A stretch of DNA of 42,611 nucleotides from assembly GCA_029068505.1 (NCBI GenBank), contig JAIECN010000024.1, forward strand, positions 31,961-74,571. Reading direction: 5' to 3'. Of this stretch, positions 10,988 through 20,657 are shown one piece after another (positions within the stretch are counted from its first letter, which is position 1; the number at the start of each line of letters is the position of its first letter). The notes under the pieces were generated by a model. It made no database searches. It was not told the DNA's origin and was given only the letters and a program-made list of their open reading frames with translations. A program made the position numbers and the translations under genes. The stretch is from Alistipes sp. (lineage in GTDB: Bacteria > Bacteroidota > Bacteroidia > Bacteroidales > Rikenellaceae).

Positions 10988-11734
10988 ATGTCTCTCCAGA
11001 TGAACCAATCGCTCTCGGTCGACTGCGCCGTCTTCGGATTCGACGGCCGGTCGCTCAAGGTCTTGCTCGTCGAGCGGCGCGATTACGATCCCGACACCCA
11101 CCTCGACCGGCTCAAGCTGCCCGGCGCCATGATTCAGGAGAACGAGACACTCCCCGCTGCGGCCAGCCGCGTGCTCGCCGAGGCGACCGGGTTGCGCGAA
11201 ATCTACCTCAAGCAGATGGAGATATTCTCCGACCCCGCCCGTGTGGCCGGCAAGGAGTTGGAGTGGATCAACCGTTACCATGGCATCCGCACCGAGCGCG
11301 TGGTGACCGTGGGTTACTATGCCTTGGTCAAACTCGACGGCCGCGTGGTCGCCTATACCGACGGCAAGGGCGCCCAGTGGGTCGAGGTCGAAGCCATCCA
11401 GCGGTTGGCGATGGATCACAAGCAGATTCTGGCCGCCGCCCTGGCTCATCTGTGCCGCGAGATGTTGCAGTCGCCCGTGGCGTTCGAGTTGCTGCCCCGC
11501 AAGTTTACGATCCGCGAGTTGCAGAACCTCTATGCGGCCGTGTTGGGCATCGAGATCGACAACCGCAATTTCCGCAAGAAGATTCTTTCGTCGGGATTCC
11601 TCGCGCCCACCGGCGAGCAGGAGCAGGGCGTGGCGCACAAGCCCGCGCAATATTATACGTTCGATCGGCAGGCCTATAAGAAGGCCCTCAAGCAGAAGCT
11701 GCGGTTGGATTTCATCAACAGTTGGCGTTATTGA
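10988..11734 (+). CDS. NUDIX-fold transcriptional regulator of xylose genes (NrtR/AraR type)
   Basis: A 248-residue two-domain regulator. The N-terminal part is a NUDIX fold (VDCAVFGFDGRSLKVLLVERRD), and the C-terminal part is the winged-helix DNA-binding domain typical of NrtR-like proteins (LLPRKFTIRELQNLYAAVLGIEIDNRNFRKKI). The Nudix box GAMIQENETLPAAASRVLAEATGL has lost most catalytic glutamates of GX5EX7REUXEEXGU (RVLAEATG in place of REUXEEXG). It should therefore sense a ligand rather than hydrolyse one. Related Bacteroides proteins control arabinose and other sugar genes. Because xylB, xylA and a sugar symporter follow, I infer xylose control. It ends 8 bp before xylB and is probably autoregulated through the paired upstream repeats. 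Confidence 0.85.
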   Translation: MSLQMNQSLSVDCAVFGFDGRSLKVLLVERRDYDPDTHLDRLKLPGAMIQENETLPAAASRVLAEATGLREIYLKQMEIFSDPARVAGKELEWINRYHGIRTERVVTVGYYALVKLDGRVVAYTDGKGAQWVEVEAIQRLAMDHKQILAAALAHLCREMLQSPVAFELLPRKFTIRELQNLYAAVLGIEIDNRNFRKKILSSGFLAPTGEQEQGVAHKPAQYYTFDRQAYKKALKQKLRLDFINSWRY

Positions 11735-11742
11735 AACAAATC

Positions 11743-13242
11743 ATGAATACGAATATGAAAACTTTAGGTATCGATATCGGTTCTTCGTCGGTCAAGGTCT
11801 CGTTGTTGGACGTGGAGAGCGGGCGTTGCGTCGCGTCGTCGACCAATCCTTCGCAGGAGATGCCCATCGACGCTCCGCAGTCCGGCTGGGCCGAGCAAGA
11901 CCCCGAAATGTGGTGGCGCTACGCGGTGGAGGGTATCCGCAGCATCGCCGCGGCAGGCCATTCCATGCAGGAGGTGCGGGCCGTCGGCATCACTTACCAA
12001 ATGCACGGTCTGGTCTGCGTCGACAGCTATGGAGCGCCCTTGCGCAAGGCGATCATCTGGTGCGATTCGCGCGCCGTCGGGATCGGCGCCGAGGCGCTGG
12101 AGGCTGTCGGGCGCGATTTCTGCCTGGAACATGCGCTCAATTCGCCGGGCAACTTCACGGCTTCCAAGCTGGCATGGGTCAAGCGCAACGAACCCGATGT
12201 GTTCGCCCGCATCGACAAGTTCATGTTGCCGGGCGATTACATCGCTTATAAGCTCTCAGGCGAGGTTTCGACCACTTGCAGCGGCCTTTCCGAGCAGATT
12301 CTCTGGGATTTCAAGGAGGAGCGGCGCGCCGATTTCGTGGCCGATCATTACGGCATTCCCCATGCGATGATCCCCGATGCCGGGGTTTCGATCGGTGTCG
12401 GCGGCCATACGGACAAGGCGACGGAAGATGCGCTCGGCATCCCCGCCGGCACGCCCATCAGCTACCGCGCCGGCGACCAGCCCAACAACGCCTTTTCGCT
12501 CAATGTCATGGAGGCGGGCGAGATCGCCGCTACGGGCGGCACCAGCGGCGTGGTCTACGGCGTGGTCGACACGCCCGAGGCCGATCCCAAGTCGCGCGTC
12601 AATACGTTCGTCCACGTCAACCATACGGCGCAGAACCCGCGTTACGGGATTCTGCTCTGCATCAACGGCACGGGCATCCTCAATTCATGGGTGCGGCGCC
12701 ATATCGTCCAGCAGACGGTCGACTACGCCGAGATGAACCGCCTGGCCGAGCAGGCGCCGGCCGGTTGCGACGGCTTGTCGATGCTGCCGTTCGGCAACGG
12801 CGCCGAGCGCATGCTCGAAAACCGCTGCATCGGCGCTGCGGTCGAGGGGATCGATTTCAACCGCCACACGACGGCCCATTTGTTGCGTGCGGCGCAGGAG
12901 GGCATCGCTTTCTCGTTCCGCTATGGCATCGACATCATGCGGTCGCTGGGTTTGAAGCCCGACGTGATCCGTGCCGGCCGGGCCAACCTGTTCCTTTCGC
13001 CGCTTTTCCGGCGCACGCTGGCTACGCTTACCGGTGCCCGCATCGAGTTGTTCGACACCGACGGCGCGTTGGGCGCGGCCCGCGGCGCCGCTCTGGGGGC
13101 CGGGTTGTATCGGTCGCGCGAGGAGGCGTTCGCGTCGCTTACCCGTCTGGAGGTCGTCGAACCTGCGGCTGCCGACCGCGAAGCCTTGGAAGAGGCCTAC
13201 GCACGATGGAAGCAGGTGCTGGAAACAAAAATCGGGATTTGA
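11743..13242 (+). CDS. xylB: xylulokinase (FGGY family)
   Basis: Phosphorylates D-xylulose to xylulose 5-phosphate for the pentose phosphate pathway. It is a 499-residue sugar kinase. The N-terminal FGGY domain opens with LGIDIGSSSVKVSLLDVESG (phosphate-1 ATP motif), and MHGLVCVD and the CDSRA segment match the xylulokinase substrate loop. The C-terminal domain contains AGDQPNNAFSLNV, GTSGVVYG and the late GAARGAALGAGL motif. I choose the ATG at 11743 instead of the TTG at 11722, which would overlap the regulator; the ATG at 11755 is equally possible. The substrate is assigned mainly from adjacency to xylA; other FGGY kinases are possible but less likely. Confidence 0.9.
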   Translation: MNTNMKTLGIDIGSSSVKVSLLDVESGRCVASSTNPSQEMPIDAPQSGWAEQDPEMWWRYAVEGIRSIAAAGHSMQEVRAVGITYQMHGLVCVDSYGAPLRKAIIWCDSRAVGIGAEALEAVGRDFCLEHALNSPGNFTASKLAWVKRNEPDVFARIDKFMLPGDYIAYKLSGEVSTTCSGLSEQILWDFKEERRADFVADHYGIPHAMIPDAGVSIGVGGHTDKATEDALGIPAGTPISYRAGDQPNNAFSLNVMEAGEIAATGGTSGVVYGVVDTPEADPKSRVNTFVHVNHTAQNPRYGILLCINGTGILNSWVRRHIVQQTVDYAEMNRLAEQAPAGCDGLSMLPFGNGAERMLENRCIGAAVEGIDFNRHTTAHLLRAAQEGIAFSFRYGIDIMRSLGLKPDVIRAGRANLFLSPLFRRTLATLTGARIELFDTDGALGAARGAALGAGLYRSREEAFASLTRLEVVEPAAADREALEEAYARWKQVLETKIGI

Positions 13243-13326
13243 CCGCGGTGCCGGCTTCCGTGAGGGCCGCATCGAATATGCAGTTGCGAATCATGATTTA
13301 AAATATCTTTAAAAAACATTATTATT

Positions 13327-14637
13327 ATGGCAAAAACTTATTTCCCCACCGTGGGCAAGATCGCGTTCGAGGGCGCAAGTTCCAAAAATCCGATGGCATT
13401 CCGCTATTATGAACCCGAACGTGTGGTCAAAGGCCGCAAGATGAAGGATTGGCTGCGTTTCTCGATGGCCTGGTGGCATACGCTCTGCGCCGAGGGCGGC
13501 GACCAGTTCGGCGGCGGCACGAAGAAGTTCCCTTGGAACGAGGCGGCCTGCCCCATCGAGCGTGCCAAGGCCAAGATGGACGCCGGTTTCGAGTTCATGC
13601 AGAAGATGGGCATCGAGTACTACTGCTTCCACGACGTCGACCTGGTGGACGAAGATCCCGATCCCGCCAAGTACGAGGCGAACCTCAAGGAGATCGTAGC
13701 CTACGCCAAGCAGAAGCAGGCCGAGACGGGCATCAAGCTGCTGTGGGGTACGGCCAACGTCTTTTCGAACGGCCGTTACATGAACGGCGCTTCGACCAAC
13801 CCCGATTTCGACACGGCGGCCCGCGCCATGCTTCAGATCAAGAACGCCATCGACGCCACGATCGAGCTGGGCGGCGAGAACTACGTCTTCTGGGGCGGCC
13901 GCGAGGGTTACATGTCGCTGCTCAACACCGACATGAAGCGCGAGAAGGAGCACATGGCCACCATGCTGACCATGGCCCGCGACTACGCCCGTTCGAAGGG
14001 TTTCAAGGGCAACTTCCTCATCGAGCCGAAGCCCATGGAGCCGATGAAGCACCAGTACGACGTCGACACCGAGACGGTCGTCGGCTTCCTGCGCGCTCAC
14101 GGCTTGGACAAGGATTTCAAGGTCAACATCGAGGTCAACCACGCCACGCTGGCCGGCCATACGTTCGAGCATGAGTTGCAGTGCGCCGTCGACGCCGGCA
14201 TGCTGGGGTCGATCGACGCCAACCGCGGCGACTACCAGAACGGCTGGGACACCGACCAGTTCCCCATCGACCTCTACGAGATGGTCCAGGCCATGATGGT
14301 GATCGTACGCGGCGGCGGTTTGCAGGGCGGCGGCACCAACTTCGACGCCAAGACGCGCCGCAACTCGACCGACCCCGAAGACCTCTTCATCGCCCACATC
14401 GCTGCGATGGACATCATGGCCCGCGCCTTGTTGATCGCTGCCGATCTGTTGGAGAACTCGCCCTACGAGAAGATGCTCGCCGAGCGCTACGCTTCCTACG
14501 ACAAGGGCGAGGGCAAGGCCTTCGAGGAGGGCAAGCTCACCCTGGAGCAGGTGGCCGAGTATGCCCGCAAGCACGAACCCGTTCAGCACAGCGGCAAGCA
14601 GGAGCTGTACGAGGCGATCGTCAACATGTACATCTAA
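13327..14637 (+). CDS. xylA: xylose isomerase
   Basis: Interconverts D-xylose and D-xylulose in the cytoplasm, using two divalent metal ions. The 436-residue TIM-barrel protein shows the catalytic FHDVDL (H102, D105), the metal-binding region [30 protein letters not shown], and [17 protein letters not shown]. Length and motifs fit the class II isomerases of Bacteroidota. It lies 84 bp after xylB. That gap contains a TATCTTTA sequence (13304-13311), one base from the -7 consensus, so a secondary promoter is possible. A strong terminator follows immediately. Confidence 0.97.
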
Positions 14638-14643
14638 ATCCCG

Positions 14644-14685
14644 TTCGGAGCGGAGGGCGTGCAGCTCTCCGCTCCGAATTTTTTT
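14644..14685 (+). terminator. intrinsic terminator inside the xylose operon
   Basis: TTCGGAGCGGAG (14644-14655) and its exact complement CTCCGCTCCGAA (14667-14678) form a 12-bp stem with an 11-nt loop, followed by seven Ts. It begins 6 bp after the xylA stop and precedes the transporter ATG by 30 bp. It either ends the xylA transcript or attenuates read-through into the symporter gene. Confidence 0.88.
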
Positions 14686-14714
14686 ACAACCCTACCTTTA
14701 AAACTCCGACCAAA

Positions 14715-16127
14715 ATGACCGATCCAAAAACCGGCAGCCGCCTTTATCTGTTCTCCATCGTCCTGGTGGCGATCATCGGCGGTTTGCTCTTCGGCTACGA
14801 CACCGCTGTGGTGTCGGGTGCCGAAAAAGCTCTCGAAAACTTCTTCCAAGGCGGCTTGGGCGCGCTCTACACTTCGGGTTGGCACGGCTTCACGGCCTCC
14901 AGCGCGTTGCTGGGCTGCGTGATCGGCGGTGCGATCTCCGGTCTGCTCGCCTCGCGCTTCGGCCGCAAGCGTTCGCTGCTCGTCGCCGCGATGCTCTTTT
15001 TCGTCTCGGCCCTCGGGTCGTGGTGCCCCGAAAGCGGGGTGCTGCCCTACGGCGAGGCGTCGAAAACCCTGCTCGTGGTGTTCAATTTCTACCGCATCCT
15101 CGGCGGCATCGGCGTGGGTCTGGCTTCGGCCGTGTGCCCGATGTACATCGCTGAGATTTCGCCCGCCCGCATCCGCGGCACGCTCGTGTCGTGCAACCAG
15201 TTCGCCATCATCTTCGGCATGCTGGTGGTGTACTTCGTCAATTACATGATCCGCAATTCGTTGGGCGAGAGCACCGAGGCCATCCAGTCCGCCATGAACG
15301 CCATCGGTTGGCGCCGCATGTTCGTCAGCGAGGCTTTCCCCGCCGGCATCTTCGGGCTGCTGGTGCTCTTCATCCCCGAGACGCCCCGTTTCCTGGCTCT
15401 GAAGGGCCGCGACGAGAAGGCCTATTCGATCCTCGCCCACATCAACGGTGCGGACGAGGCCCGTTCGATCCTCGACCAGATCAAGGCTACGGTGCACGAG
15501 AAGCGCGAGCATATCTTCGCCTACGGCATCGCCGTGGTCGTCATCGGCGTTCTGCTGTCGTTCTTCCAGCAGGCCGTGGGCATCAACGTCGTGTTGTACT
15601 ATGCGCCCCGCATCTTCGAGAATATGGGCGCTTCGGGCGACGCTTCGATGATGCAGACCGTGGTCATGGGCGTCGTGAACATCATCTTCACGGTCGTCGC
15701 CATCTTCACGGTCGACCGCATGGGCCGCAAACCGTTGCTCATCATCGGCTCGGTCGGCATGATGGTCGGCATGATCGCTCTGGCCGCGTTGTCGTTCACC
15801 GATTCCATCGGCATGGCGGCCTTGGTTTTCATCATCATCTACACCGCTTCGTTCATGATGTCGTGGGGGCCGATCTGCTGGGTGTTGATCGCCGAAATCT
15901 TCCCCAACACCATCCGTTCGCAGGCCGTGGCCATCGCCGTGGCGGCGCAGTGGATATCCAACTTCCTCGTCTCGGCCACGTTCCCTTCGTTGAGCGCCTG
16001 GAGCGTCGGCGGCACTTATTGCATCTATGCGTTGATGTCGTTGCTTTCGGCACTCTTCGTGTGGCGTTGGGTCCCCGAGACCAAGGGCAAGACCTTGGAG
16101 GAGATGTCGCAGTTGTGGAAAAAATAG
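14715..16127 (+). CDS. xylE: sugar:H+ symporter, probable D-xylose transporter
   Basis: A 470-residue MFS sugar porter (XylE/GLUT type) that imports sugar with protons through the inner membrane. Twelve TM helices can be traced. Family signatures are visible: GGLLFGYDTAVVSGA in TM1, RFGRKRS in loop 2-3, PETPRFLALKGR after TM6, QQAVGINVVLYYAPRIF in TM7, DRMGRKPLL in loop 8-9 and PETKGKTLEEM after TM12. I use the ATG at 14715 (MTDPKTGSRL); the long upstream extension in the ORF track is a shadow of xylA. Xylose specificity is inferred from the operon. The xylE symbol reflects this, not a proven orthology. Confidence 0.88.
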   Translation: MTDPKTGSRLYLFSIVLVAIIGGLLFGYDTAVVSGAEKALENFFQGGLGALYTSGWHGFTASSALLGCVIGGAISGLLASRFGRKRSLLVAAMLFFVSALGSWCPESGVLPYGEASKTLLVVFNFYRILGGIGVGLASAVCPMYIAEISPARIRGTLVSCNQFAIIFGMLVVYFVNYMIRNSLGESTEAIQSAMNAIGWRRMFVSEAFPAGIFGLLVLFIPETPRFLALKGRDEKAYSILAHINGADEARSILDQIKATVHEKREHIFAYGIAVVVIGVLLSFFQQAVGINVVLYYAPRIFENMGASGDASMMQTVVMGVVNIIFTVVAIFTVDRMGRKPLLIIGSVGMMVGMIALAALSFTDSIGMAALVFIIIYTASFMMSWGPICWVLIAEIFPNTIRSQAVAIAVAAQWISNFLVSATFPSLSAWSVGGTYCIYALMSLLSALFVWRWVPETKGKTLEEMSQLWKK

Positions 16128-16189: not shown

Positions 16190-16326
16190 GCGGATGCGCA
16201 TGCGTACCATACGACGTCGATGCCCGCGGCCTGCGTTTTTTCGGCGCCGGACCGCCTGCCGGGGCTTTGCGGCGCCGGTTCGGGCAGGAATATCGGTTTA
16301 AGTTTTCTTTTTTTGATTATTAGTTC

Positions 16327-16334
16327 TATCTTTG
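16327..16334 (+). promoter_or_regulatory. -7 box of the thiamine uptake operon
   Basis: TATCTTTG is a perfect TAnnTTTG match preceded by a T-rich tract. Transcription would start about where the riboswitch P1 stem begins. Confidence 0.65.
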
Positions 16335-16341
16335 CCCCCGA

Positions 16342-16420
16342 TATTTCGAAGGGGTGCCTTACTATCAGGCTGAGATTATACCCATTGAACCGGATACGGG
16401 TAATGCCGAAACCGGGAATA
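16342..16420 (+). ncRNA. TPP riboswitch (THI element) aptamer
   Basis: The conserved THI-box strings occur in the right order: GGGGTGCC, CAGGCTGAGAtTATACCC, TTGAACCGGATACGGGTAATGCC, then GGGAATA. P1 can form between TATTTC (16342-16347) and GGAATA (16415-16420). P2 pairs GGGT with ACCC around the CTGAGA motif that binds the pyrimidine ring of thiamine pyrophosphate. It controls the outer-membrane receptor gene downstream, as known for thiamine transporters of Bacteroidota. High TPP should repress expression. Confidence 0.95.
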
Positions 16421-16439
16421 CGCGTAATCGACACACATA

Positions 16440-16484
16440 CCCCTTTTCATTCTTTAACCCAAAATTAAAGTATCTATGAAAAGG
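16440..16484 (+). promoter_or_regulatory. start-codon-sequestering expression platform
   Basis: CCTTTTCAT (16442-16450) is the exact reverse complement of ATGAAAAGG (16476-16484), which includes the receptor's start codon, so a 9-bp hairpin can hide the ATG. CCCCTT (16440-16445) is also complementary to AAGGGG (16349-16354) in the aptamer's P2 strand. The two pairings exclude each other. That fits a translational switch in which ligand-bound aptamer frees the sequestering strand. The mechanism is my inference. Confidence 0.6.
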
Positions 16485-18866
16485 TTTCTACTACCCATCG
16501 CGGCCTTGGCCTTGTGCCAGGTTGTCCATGCCGGGCACTTCGCCGTGTCCCGATGCGAAGAATTGCCCGAGGAGAGGGGCGTCGCCGCGCCGGCTTCGCA
16601 GGACGTATCGTTTTCCGAGGGGCTGCCGGCTTCCGATGCCGTGCATCCCGACGATTCCGTGCGCATGTACCGGCTCCAGGAGATCGAGGTGACCGCCACG
16701 CGCGCCACCGGGTCTACGCCCGTGGCCTATTCTTCCGTTTCGCGCGAGGAGATCGCCCGCAACAGCTTCGGTTACGACATCCCCTCCGTGCTGGCCCTCA
16801 CGCCCTCGATGATCGCCACCAACGAAACCGGCATCGGCATCGGCGGCACTTCGATGCGGCTGCGCGGCACGGACGCCACGCGTCTGAACGTGACCATCAA
16901 CGGCGTGCCGATGAACAACCCCGATTCCCATTCGATGTATTGGTACGATACGCCCGACCTCGTCTCGGCCGTCGGCGACATGCAGATCCAGCGCGGCGCC
17001 GGCATCTCGACCAACGGCACCGGAGCGTTCGGCGGCGCCATCAACATGACCACCGAGACGCTTTCTACCCAATTCGGCGGTTCGGCGTCGCTCTCCTACG
17101 GGTCGTATAACACCAACAAGCAGGCCGTGCATTTCTCGTCGGGGTTGTTGGGCGGCCATTGGGCGCTCGACGGACGCCTCACGCACATCGGGTCGGAGGG
17201 TTACATCGACCGCGGCTCCACCGATCTGTGTTCCTACATGTTCCAGGCCGGTTACTACGGGGGCAGCACGATGGTCAAGTTCGTTTCGTTCGGCGGCAAG
17301 GCCAAAACCTACCTCACTTACAACGGCGTCTCCAAGGAGGATATGGCCCGGTACGGGCGTCGTTATCACGACAGCGGTCAGTATGCGACTTCCGACGGCC
17401 CGTTCACGCTCTACGACAAGAAAGGCAATCCCTATCATGTCGACTATTACGACGACCAGACCGACAACTATCTGCAAATCAATAACCAGTTGCTTTTCAA
17501 CCATACGTTCAACAAGGAGTGGTCGATGAACGCCACCGCGTTCTATACCTACGGCGACGGTTTCTACAAGCAGTATAAGGACGACGCCAAGCTCGTGGAG
17601 TACGGCTTCGCCGACGACGTGGCGTTCGACAGCGAGGGCAACAAGGTGCGCAAGGACTTGATCCGCAAGAAGGTGATGCGCAACCACCTGGGCGGTCTCA
17701 ACGCCGCGGCGCATTATCATGCCCGGACGGTGGATGTGTCGTTCGGCGGTTCGTACAGTTATTATTCGTGCCCGCATTGGGGCGAGTTGGAGTGGATCGA
17801 CGGCGGTGTAGAGTTCGACCGCAATGCCGCCTGGTATTATAACGATGTCAACAAGCACGATTTCAACATCTTCGGACGTGCCAACTGGACGGTGGCCGAG
17901 GGGTTGAACCTCTTCGCCGACTTGCAGTACCGCTATGTGAGCTACGAGGCTTGGGGCGTGAACGACAACTATGTCTCCTCGTCGGTCGGCATGCAGCCCA
18001 TCGACGTGGACAAGCGCTACCACTTCTTCAACCCGCATGCCGGTCTGACTTACAGCTTCGCCAAGCACCACACCCTTTTCGCGTCGTTCGCCATCGCGCA
18101 GAAGGAACCCACGCGCGGCGACTTCACGGATCGCTACATGTATGCCGACGACGACAGCTATCCCTCCTCGGAGAAGATGTTCGACTATGAGATCGGCTAC
18201 CGCTTCGAGCTGCCGGCCGTGACCGTCGGGGCCAACCTCTATTACATGTACTACAAGAACCAGCTGGTCAAGACCGGCCGCATCAACGACAACTACGACG
18301 CGTTGAACATCAACGTGCCCAAGAGCTACCGCCGCGGCATCGAGCTTTCGGCCGCCTGGCGCGCGCTGCCTTGGTTCACGGTCGGCGCCAACGCCACTTT
18401 CTCGCAGAACCGCATCAAGAATTATGTGGACAAGGTGGTGGACTACGCCGTCGAGGGCAACGTCACGGACGACGGCTACGGCTACCACACCCGGGAAATG
18501 GGCACCACGCGCATCTCCTATTCGCCCGAGACCATGGGGTCGCTGTTCCTCGATTTCCACATCCGGGGTTTCGAGGCTTTGTTGCATACGCAGTATGTCG
18601 GCGAGCAGTATTTCACCAACTTTGCCAATCCCGACATGCGGTTGGACAGCTATTGCGTCACCAACCTCAATCTGGGCTACACGCTCCGCACCCGCGCGGC
18701 CCGCAGCGTGCGTTTCGGCGTGGCGATCTACAACTTGTTCGACGCCCGCTACGAGAGCAACGGCTACGGCTGGTCGGAGTCTTACGAGGGCGTGCGCACC
18801 GACCATGCGTTCTACTTCCCGCAGGCGCCGCTCCATGTGCTGGCCAACGTGACGGTCAAATTCTGA
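16476..18866 (+). CDS. TonB-dependent outer-membrane receptor, probable thiamine transporter
   Basis: A 796-residue TonB-dependent receptor that imports a substrate across the outer membrane with energy from TonB-ExbBD. It has a signal peptide (MKRFLLPIAALALCQVVHAG), a short extension, and a TonB-box-like start (LQEIEVTATRA). The plug domain reads RNSFGYDIPSVLALTPSM through IQRGAGISTNGTGAFGGAINMTT. A 22-strand barrel follows, ending in the typical aromatic-terminated strand (VLANVTVKF). The TPP riboswitch directly upstream and the PnuC-type transporter downstream indicate thiamine or a thiamine derivative as substrate. This matches the riboswitch-controlled receptors (OMR1 type) known in Bacteroidota. 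No SusD partner is present. Confidence 0.9.
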   Translation: MKRFLLPIAALALCQVVHAGHFAVSRCEELPEERGVAAPASQDVSFSEGLPASDAVHPDDSVRMYRLQEIEVTATRATGSTPVAYSSVSREEIARNSFGYDIPSVLALTPSMIATNETGIGIGGTSMRLRGTDATRLNVTINGVPMNNPDSHSMYWYDTPDLVSAVGDMQIQRGAGISTNGTGAFGGAINMTTETLSTQFGGSASLSYGSYNTNKQAVHFSSGLLGGHWALDGRLTHIGSEGYIDRGSTDLCSYMFQAGYYGGSTMVKFVSFGGKAKTYLTYNGVSKEDMARYGRRYHDSGQYATSDGPFTLYDKKGNPYHVDYYDDQTDNYLQINNQLLFNHTFNKEWSMNATAFYTYGDGFYKQYKDDAKLVEYGFADDVAFDSEGNKVRKDLIRKKVMRNHLGGLNAAAHYHARTVDVSFGGSYSYYSCPHWGELEWIDGGVEFDRNAAWYYNDVNKHDFNIFGRANWTVAEGLNLFADLQYRYVSYEAWGVNDNYVSSSVGMQPIDVDKRYHFFNPHAGLTYSFAKHHTLFASFAIAQKEPTRGDFTDRYMYADDDSYPSSEKMFDYEIGYRFELPAVTVGANLYYMYYKNQLVKTGRINDNYDALNINVPKSYRRGIELSAAWRALPWFTVGANATFSQNRIKNYVDKVVDYAVEGNVTDDGYGYHTREMGTTRISYSPETMGSLFLDFHIRGFEALLHTQYVGEQYFTNFANPDMRLDSYCVTNLNLGYTLRTRAARSVRFGVAIYNLFDARYESNGYGWSESYEGVRTDHAFYFPQAPLHVLANVTVKF

Positions 18867-18936: not shown

Positions 18937-19506
18937 GTGGACATAAAATTGTTTTTGCAAATCGTCGGCGTCGTGCTCGGACTGCTCTACCTTTGGTTGG
19001 AGTACCGCGCCGACATCCGGTTGTGGATCGTGGGACTCATCATGCCCGTGGTGCATGGCGCGCTTTATTATAAGGCGGGGCTTTATGCCGACTTTTCGAT
19101 GCAGGTCTGCTATGTCTTGGCCGGATTGTACGGGTGGGCCGTGTGGCACAACGCGCCCCGCCGGGGAGCTTCGGCCGTCGCCGTCGCCCATACGCCTTGG
19201 AGGTGGCTCCCGGCGCTCGTCGTGGGCTATGCCGTGCTGCATGCCGCGATCTATGGGCTGCTCGTGCGGTTCACCGACAGCACGGTGCCGTTCTGGGACA
19301 GCCTCACTACGGCGCTTTGCATCGTGGCCTATTGGATGCTTTCGCGCAAGTGGGTCGAGCAGTGGCTCGTGTGGCTGGCGGTCGACATCGTGACGGTGGG
19401 GCTTTATTTCTACAAGGGCATCTCCCTCACAGCCGGTCTCTATGCGCTCTATTCGGTGCTCGCCGTGGCCGGTTACCTGCGCTGGCGCCGCATGGTTGCA
19501 AGATAA
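18937..19506 (+). CDS. pnuT: PnuC-family transporter, probable thiamine importer PnuT
   Basis: A 189-residue inner-membrane protein of the PnuC family with about seven hydrophobic segments. It is rich in Trp and Tyr in the membrane segments (GVVLGLLYLWLEYRADIRLWIVG, YGWAVWHN, KWVEQWLVWLAVDIVTVGLYFYKG). PnuC members carry nicotinamide riboside, and the PnuT branch carries thiamine. Its place behind a TPP-controlled receptor gene argues for thiamine, by facilitated diffusion trapped by phosphorylation. The start is a GTG at 18937, 70 bp after the receptor stop. Thiamine pyrophosphokinase, often the third gene of this cluster, is not next to it here. Confidence 0.82.
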   Translation: MDIKLFLQIVGVVLGLLYLWLEYRADIRLWIVGLIMPVVHGALYYKAGLYADFSMQVCYVLAGLYGWAVWHNAPRRGASAVAVAHTPWRWLPALVVGYAVLHAAIYGLLVRFTDSTVPFWDSLTTALCIVAYWMLSRKWVEQWLVWLAVDIVTVGLYFYKGISLTAGLYALYSVLAVAGYLRWRRMVAR

Positions 19507-19510
19507 GCGA

Positions 19511-19543
19511 AGCGGCCCGCCGATGAAGGCGGGCCGCTTTTTT
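19511..19543. terminator. terminator after pnuT, likely bidirectional
   Basis: AGCGGCCCGCC (19511-19521) and GGCGGGCCGCT (19528-19538) form an 11-bp perfect stem with a GATGAA loop and a run of Ts. It lies between the convergent pnuT and yjbR-like genes. Confidence 0.88.
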
Positions 19544-19927
19544 CTATTCGGGCAGTCCGTGCTGTTCGACGTAGGCCAGGATTTCGTCGCGCAGCGCCTT
19601 GGGCGCGACGTTCCGCCGCAGCACCAGCAGGTAGGAGTTGCGGATCTGTTCGCGCAGGAACGAGTCGGGCAGGTCGCCGTCGGTGCGTATGCCGTTCCAG
19701 TGTTGTTTGTTGAAGTGGTGCGCCGTGCCGATCTCGGCGTAGCGTTCGCGCAGGCGCAGCGCCTCGTCGGGGTCGCATTTCACGGCGAAGTGCGCGAATT
19801 CGGCCATGTCGGCGCAGGCATACATCTTGCCCCCGATCTTGTAGACGAGCGTCGTTTCGTCGAACGGGGTGCTCTCCTCCGTGAGCGGCAGCGAGAGACA
19901 ATAATCGCGGAATTCCAATACGTCCAT
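19544..19927 (-). CDS. MmcQ/YjbR family protein
   Basis: A 127-residue protein of the MmcQ/YjbR family, a small fold with a CyaY-like shape often described as DNA-binding, of unclear role. Visible family features are the N-terminal LEFRDYCLSLPLTEESTPFDETTLVYKIGGKMYA, the central CDPDEALRLRERY, and the conserved HFNKQHWNGI with a following LREQIRNSYLLV. Length is normal. It is a single gene between terminator-bounded neighbours. Its promoter box sits only 4 bp before the ATG, which suggests a leaderless mRNA or a slightly later start. Confidence 0.85.
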   Translation of the reverse strand: MDVLEFRDYCLSLPLTEESTPFDETTLVYKIGGKMYACADMAEFAHFAVKCDPDEALRLRERYAEIGTAHHFNKQHWNGIRTDGDLPDSFLREQIRNSYLLVLRRNVAPKALRDEILAYVEQHGLPE

Positions 19928-19931
19928 AGGG

Positions 19932-19939
19932 CAAAGATA
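19932..19939 (-). promoter_or_regulatory. -7 box of the yjbR-like gene
   Basis: The minus strand reads TATCTTTG, a perfect TAnnTTTG match, ending 4 bp before the ATG. The transcript would begin at or within the start codon. Confidence 0.6.
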
Positions 19940-20081
19940 GTGTTTTCGATCCGCAATCTACGCTTTTTTCGCAGGATCGTCGTTTTTCCGGGGCGGCCGG
20001 CAGCTTATGGCCGGGGATTCCGGTTGTTTGGCACATGGATTGCGGAACGGCAGGAAAGTAAAACCAAAATCGAGGTAAACA

Positions 20082-20657
20082 ATGAAAAAAATTCTCCTCT
20101 GCCTGCCCCTCCTTGCCGTGATGGCCGCAGGACTGATGGGCTGCTCGCAACGCCGCCAATGGAACCACGAAGAACGCAAAGCCATGCGCGAAGCGCTGCG
20201 CGACTACCGCCAGATGGCCTATCTGGACGACCTGACCGACGACGAATACGTGGTCTTCACCGACGGCGTGGCCACCGATCTGGAAGCCGATTATCCCGTT
20301 TATACCACCTTCATCCAGATGCCCGGCGTCAACGACACGGTGGACATGGTGGTCGTGACGGCCATCGTCGACGAACTCAACGCCGATGCCCGCAACATGC
20401 GCCACATCTATCCCTATCCCTACCTGGTGGCGCAGGGCGTGCTGCCGGCCGGGTTGGATCACGAGCAGCAGCGCCAGTTCTACAACTGCTTCGCCTACAA
20501 GGTCAACGGGGCCTACCAGACCATGACGCAGTTCTTCAACGCCGTGCTGGCCGACACGACCGACCATTCGCGCATCCGCCGCATGGAGAGCGAGTGCGCC
20601 AACGATCTGTTCAGCTGGACGGTGACCGAGGTCGACGTGATCGAGACCGTCGAGTAG
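20082..20657 (+). CDS. putative lipoprotein of unknown function
   Basis: A 191-residue protein I do not recognise. The N-terminus MKKILLCLPLLAVMAAGLMGC is a lipoprotein signal with cleavage before C21. The mature protein begins SQRRQWNHEERKAMREALRDYR, a charged helix, followed by an acidic mixed domain (YLDDLTDDEYVVFTDGVATDLEADYPVY). The DDEYVVF and CFAYKVNG segments suggest a compact soluble domain facing the periplasm or cell surface. It stands alone between divergent yjbR and a convergent lipid kinase. Nothing around it points to a pathway. Confidence 0.75.
   Translation: MKKILLCLPLLAVMAAGLMGCSQRRQWNHEERKAMREALRDYRQMAYLDDLTDDEYVVFTDGVATDLEADYPVYTTFIQMPGVNDTVDMVVVTAIVDELNADARNMRHIYPYPYLVAQGVLPAGLDHEQQRQFYNCFAYKVNGAYQTMTQFFNAVLADTTDHSRIRRMESECANDLFSWTVTEVDVIETVE

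Follow-up and report, generated by a model that had tools for sequence, protein, structure and literature searches.

How a thiamine pyrophosphate (TPP) riboswitch might shut off a gene that lacks a Shine-Dalgarno (SD) sequence is the question raised by a leader in Alistipes, a genus of a phylum that initiates translation without SD pairing and in which TPP riboswitch function was called uncertain in 2017 (Costliow & Degnan, PMC5613172). In that study, RNA levels of the B. thetaiotaomicron thiamine transport operons were unresponsive to thiamine. Genes of F. johnsoniae, a member of the Bacteroidetes, show a depletion of base pairing around their start codons, which is stronger in those that are well translated (PMC6847099). 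An earlier note on a 42,611-nucleotide stretch of Alistipes DNA (the window) had proposed a simple ON/OFF model in which TPP folds the aptamer, frees a complement of the start codon and hides the ATG. Comparative evidence largely supports this model, whose OFF direction and ligand binding we infer, and we consider it very likely that the leader is a translational OFF riboswitch of an SD-less gene, worked by exchange of a strand between aptamer helix P2 and the start codon.

The locus and its aptamer

A match to the RF00059 TPP riboswitch aptamer (THI element) lies at positions 16340–16436 of the plus strand and spans model positions 1–105 of 105 (cmscan, 49.8 bits, E 7.3e-9); this full-length match indicates that the aptamer read in the earlier note is real. 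Its score is 4.5 bits below the Rfam gathering score of 54.3, and a default whole-window Rfam scan returned no match. It is the sole RF00059 match in this genome. Orthologous receptor leaders score up to 57 bits (e.g. L033), and in the genus 153 of 180 genomes contain a match, which exceeds the cut-off in 56 of the 180. Helices P2–P5 contain all listed model pairs but three, and CTGAGA and the rest of the core are kept (core consensus GGGGUGC, CUGAGA, GAACC). In the TPP-bound fold, as given by the cmscan structure line and pair list, the native 3' strand of P2 (CCC, 16381–16383) pairs with GGG at 16351–16353. P1 is weak, with three of five model pairs formed and two broken, and the alignment fold yields no consensus P1 pair.

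Downstream on the same strand is the regulated gene, encoding a TonB-dependent outer-membrane receptor of 796 aa (16476–18866; Pfam Plug and TonB_dep_Rec_b-barrel), followed by a gene for a PnuC/PnuT-family inner-membrane transporter (18937–19506; Pfam NMN_transporter, E 8e-50; NCBIfam TIGR01528). The riboswitch thus precedes thiamine-related uptake genes, as expected of its class. By context the receptor is probably of the thiamine-receptor (OMthi) type, its specificity being deduced from the riboswitch and from the OMthi and pnuT genes described in PMC5613172. The nearest database records of the window carry the name Alistipes. Among the genes scanned after the receptor and PnuT (18937–20654), no homologue of tnr3 (thiamine pyrophosphokinase) was seen; those genes encode a YjbR-family protein (minus strand) and a 191-aa protein without assignment. 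On the 5' side, open reading frames at 10988–16127 of the plus strand give translations resembling a NUDIX-type regulator, xylulokinase, xylose isomerase and a sugar transporter, and this apparent xylose cluster stops about 200 nt before the riboswitch.

Just 5' of the aptamer, TATCTTTG (16327–16334, plus strand) matches TAnnTTTG, which we take to be the Bacteroidetes −7 promoter box. Because this motif is present in 61 of 65 orthologous leaders, nearly always 18–26 nt 5' of the P2 GGGG, the mRNA probably starts with the aptamer, just ahead of its first bases. Pairing of GCCCCC (16334–16339) with GGGG, which appears in the unconstrained fold, was set aside, as the conserved TAnnTTTG puts the mRNA start at or after GCCCCC.

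Two mutually exclusive pairings

Between the aptamer and the receptor lies a single strand with two possible partners. CCTTTTCAT (16442–16450) is the exact reverse complement of ATGAAAAGG (16476–16484), which comprises the start codon, codon 2 (AAA) and codon 3 (AGG), while CCCCTT (16440–16445) is the exact complement of AAGGGG (16349–16354), the 5' strand of P2 together with two bases of the P1/P2 junction. The two pairings exclude each other because both use 16442–16445. These complementarities had been correctly placed by the earlier note, which overlooked an inner stem, CTTTAA (16452–16457) with TTAAAG (16464–16469), that lengthens the sequestering hairpin in the fold of 16332–16500. The gene had also been rightly described as lacking an SD sequence: across 65 leaders, the 12 nt 5' of the ATG are A/T-rich, with no SD-like block.

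Taken alone, the 9-nt match is only mildly unusual. Of 222 Alistipes gene starts, that of the window included, 2 (about 1%) have in the preceding 140 nt an exact complement of 9 nt that includes the ATG. A chance hairpin could thus be suspected, since A-rich gene starts often meet U-rich complements upstream, and the riboswitch would then have no defined platform. The single-sequence match being no rarer than this, the case rests on comparison, and it is conservation among the aligned leaders that gives the start-codon complement its significance. The comparison contradicts the chance reading, to which we give hardly any credence: all orthologs conserve the elements despite a variable spacer, and the partner-swap test described below points the same way.

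Conservation and synonymous constraint in Alistipes

In 65 orthologous Alistipes leaders, the receptor begins with ATGAAAAGG without exception, and CCCCTTTT is found upstream in 64, the remaining leader having CCCTTTTC. A second retrieval (GTDB r220), which overlaps the first, gave CCCCTTTTC (16440–16448 in the window), ATGAAAAGG and the aptamer CTGAGA in 58 of 58. The spacer between the two elements measures 19–34 nt except in one leader, where it is 233 nt, and the flanking bases vary in the 65 leaders; the conserved blocks start and stop at the complementary bases. The long spacer belongs to L060, which has about 200 extra nucleotides between intact CCCCTTTTC and ATGAAAAGG and may represent either a tolerated insertion or a broken switch. 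A further ortholog, L050, starts with GTGAAAAGG in place of ATGAAAAGG; its CCCCTTTTC is intact, and the paired G and codons 2–3 are kept.

The RNAalifold consensus of 64 leaders contains exactly a 7-bp helix, CCUUUUC/GAAAAGG, with pair probabilities of 0.99–1 and none for the A and U of AUG. As judged from this alignment, the conserved sequestering helix is therefore one of 7 bp, covering the G of AUG and codons 2 and 3, of which the 9 bp of the window are an extension. The proposal that a 9-nt complement sequesters the start codon must be modified to this extent: complementarity to the ATG region, whose loss in orthologous leaders had been named as grounds for abandoning the model, is retained, but the conserved helix reaches just the G of the start codon.

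Constraint on this region extends to the choice of codons. Among the 65 aligned receptors (median identity 66%), 111 near-invariant columns have degenerate codons, and a single codon is used in all 65 just at codon 2 (AAA) and codon 3 (AGG). Nine other invariant arginine columns use 3 to 6 codons each; AGG makes up 2.8% of the remaining arginine codons as against 100% at codon 3; and the seven gene starts encoding MKR in sampled Alistipes DNA, that of the window included, show five different spellings. This contrast between a single spelling and varied codons elsewhere argues that the nucleotide sequence of codons 2–3 is under constraint, a synonymous-level constraint on receptor coding sequence that is most simply ascribed to the riboswitch.

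The same invariance leaves room for a reading without mutual pairing, in which CCCCTTTTC would be a protein or sRNA site, or a partner of P2 only, and ATGAAAAGG would be kept for its signal peptide or for efficient initiation. A-rich starts generally favour initiation, and, with both elements invariant in Alistipes and no compensatory change in the clade, sequence-specific binding by something else would be compatible with that clade taken alone. We nevertheless regard such a reading as very improbable: the limits of the conserved blocks are those of the complementary bases, neither the rarity of AGG elsewhere nor the variety of codons at MKR starts suits it, and in other families the strands have changed yet still match.

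Covariation in other families and in ThiD-type leaders

The earlier note had looked to covariation of the two helices as a check, and both are indeed conserved in Alistipes and co-vary across other families. The covariation comes from those families and from the ThiD-type leaders of the genus; within the Alistipes receptor leaders, where the two 9-mers are invariant, it is absent. A partner-swap test was used in preference to a pair-by-pair count, since the Alistipes pairs are constant and any alignment across families would have been fitted to the structure. TPP receptor leaders were taken from other Bacteroidales families, which are distinct but related, so that the p-values given here come from samples that are not fully independent.

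In these leaders the P2 5' strand and its best platform partner change together: CAATGGGG occurs with CCCCATTG, TGAATAGGGG with TTCCTATTCA, AATCAGGGG with CCCTGAT, and CCAATAGGGG with CCTCTGTTGG. For this arm, comparison with shuffled platforms gave a combined Fisher p of 1e-14 (37 leaders from related families). In the swap test, which corrects for base composition and for the GGGG shared by many strands, a foreign P2 strand paired better than the leader's own in 26% of comparisons, as against 50% expected (p = 1.7e-5). The second arm behaves likewise: the P2-partner strand, extended by the next 10 nt, pairs with the surroundings of the ATG, roughly −20 to +11 (combined Fisher p 1e-14, 34 leaders). 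Changed but matching letters reach into the coding sequence, CCCCTTTTTT with ATGAAAAAGG in L121, L175, L178 and the Dysgonomonas record L296, and CCTCTTTTTCAT with ATGAAAAGAG in L158. A minority of other-family leaders (e.g. L138, L150) have neither helix by the shuffle and start-region tests. In three leaders of other families (L163, L171, L181), the receptor start codon falls inside the aptamer match or right where it ends (distance −11 to +1), and there the aptamer may block the start codon directly.

A phylum-wide scan of 395 other Bacteroidota genomes for the exact two-part pattern gave 4 matches, against 2 for a reversed-pattern control, which is chance level; the exact two-part sequence is therefore an Alistipes feature.

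Within Alistipes, ten leaders of ThiD-type genes have P2 5' strand GAATGGTGG, partner CCACTATT and a hairpin of that partner with AATAGTGG directly 5' of the ATG, so that all three strands have changed together relative to the receptor leaders. In these ten (L071, L077, L079, L081, L082, L088, L091, L101, L105, L110) the TPP aptamer is a variant one and is followed, at about 20–60 nt, by a long hairpin, ACCACTATTT...AAATAGTGGT, that ends at the ATG, so that the switch logic is the same and only its spelling differs. In a second class of ThiD-type leaders (L005, L012, L020–L024, L027, L028, L030, L031), a terminator-like hairpin, AACGCATACC...GGTATGCGTT, is followed by a T-run. A single genus thus seems to possess both terminator-type and start-codon platforms, and, to go by these leaders, the P2 5' strand seems to be the one contested in platforms of more than one kind.

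That the Bacteroidales share a TPP riboswitch platform for SD-less mRNAs is a proposition for which we see even chances. In such a platform, one short strand would pair either with the P2 5' strand or with the initiation site, be it the start codon and the codons that follow or the bases immediately 5' of it. In Alistipes, the nucleotide sequence of receptor codons 2–3 would thereby be fixed and the platform would lie partly inside the coding sequence.

Folding and a model for the switch

In the folding comparison suggested in the earlier note, 16478–16484 is fully paired with aptamer helices P2–P5 imposed; the unconstrained RNA prefers the OFF hairpin too, pairing 16478–16484 and forming the inner stem 16452–16457/16464–16469. 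For the complete leader RNA of the window in the absence of ligand, OFF is the predicted state (P 0.79–1.0 for the anti-ATG pairs). Over 62 leaders, the predicted energies of ON minus OFF have a median of −1.4 kcal/mol, which favours ON, and range from −7.9 to +4.9, the window lying 1.3 towards OFF. Binding of TPP would contribute energy in favour of OFF. When the RNA is cut before the AUG region, the helix between P2 and anti-P2 has a median probability of 0.997, and in the full-length RNA the anti-ATG helix has a median of 0.91. With full-length, ligand-free RNA predicted to prefer OFF, ON probably depends on co-transcriptional folding and kinetic trapping, the P2:anti-P2 helix being already in place by the time the AUG arm is made; these predictions suggest a co-transcriptional decision like that in E. 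coli thiC (PMC5234074).

These data lead us to propose a model whereby transcription would begin just 5' of the aptamer. Without TPP, CCCC(UU) at 16440–16445 would capture the P2 5' strand, (AA)GGGG, immediately on being transcribed, opening the aptamer core and keeping CCUUUUC from its second partner; AUGAAAAGG would then be exposed and receptor translation could proceed. Once TPP is bound, as we presume, P2 (GGG/CCC) would be locked in the aptamer, leaving CCUUUUC free to pair with GAAAAGG, the G of AUG with codons 2 and 3; in the window, 9 bp and the inner 6-bp stem would form, and initiation would be blocked. The two exclusive helices, which are conserved and co-vary across families, are those of a sequestor/antisequestor switch, the first formed with the aptamer and the second spanning the initiation region, and the OFF logic and mutual exclusion agree with the established role of TPP as a repressor of thiamine genes. 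A start-codon-directed platform also fits the sensitivity of initiation to structure near the start in this SD-less phylum (PMC6847099).

The block could instead fall mainly on the transcript, through intrinsic or Rho-dependent termination or RNA decay, with the start hairpin secondary or serving to uncouple translation for Rho. In E. coli thiC, TPP-dependent sequestration of the ribosome-binding site and start is coupled to Rho termination (PMC5234074), and other Alistipes TPP leaders, before a thiD-type gene, do have a terminator-like hairpin, AACGCATACC...GGTATGCGTTTTC, with a T-run (e.g. L012, L020). In the receptor leader, however, no terminator-like site was found in 16250–16550, a range that includes the aptamer-to-receptor interval; the OMthi and pnuT transcripts of B. 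thetaiotaomicron are unchanged with thiamine (PMC5613172); and the constraint sits on codons 2–3 and stops there. We therefore hold action on the transcript to be unlikely, and prefer control at translation, which offers a reason why transcripts of uptake genes need not change with thiamine. A single 9-nt strand that trades its aptamer partner for the start codon and codons 2–3 makes for a concrete, easily mutated model.

Comparison with known systems

Neither the aptamer nor the gene nor the overall logic of the switch is new, and the exchange between P2 strand and start codon may be partly known as well. Costliow, Degnan and Vanderpool reportedly dealt with transcriptional or translational control by TPP riboswitches in Bacteroides in a preprint of 2019, whose title names a translational mode for some of them. 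The Bacteroides riboswitches of OMthi, pnuT-tnr3 and thiSEGCHF-tenI (PMC5613172) resemble the present one in aptamer class, kind of gene (outer-membrane thiamine receptor, PnuT) and phylum; the locus described here differs in belonging to Alistipes and in having receptor and pnuT adjacent.

E. coli thiC (PMC5234074) shares the OFF logic, its TPP-bound fold sequestering the start codon. Its ligand-free ON fold contains a long-range helix, anti-P1, with the 5' strand of the aptamer, and its full-length RNA drifts to the sequestered fold while nascent RNA locks ON, both of which recall the Alistipes switch. In contrast, thiC sequesters SD and AUG and competes for P1, whereas the Alistipes strand, in a leader without an SD sequence, covers the AUG and codons 2–3 and contests P2 and the P1/P2 junction; with AUG and codons 2–3 as the sequestered part, the switch falls outside the SD-sequestering type of E. 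coli thiM and thiC. The sequestor/antisequestor class of Barrick & Breaker (2007, PMC2258182) likewise has mutually exclusive helices and OFF logic, but there the ribosome-binding site is sequestered and P1 is the usual switching helix, whereas in Alistipes it is mostly coding sequence that is sequestered and P2 that switches. What is added here is the identity of the two helices, the comparative support for them and the synonymous constraint on codons 2–3.
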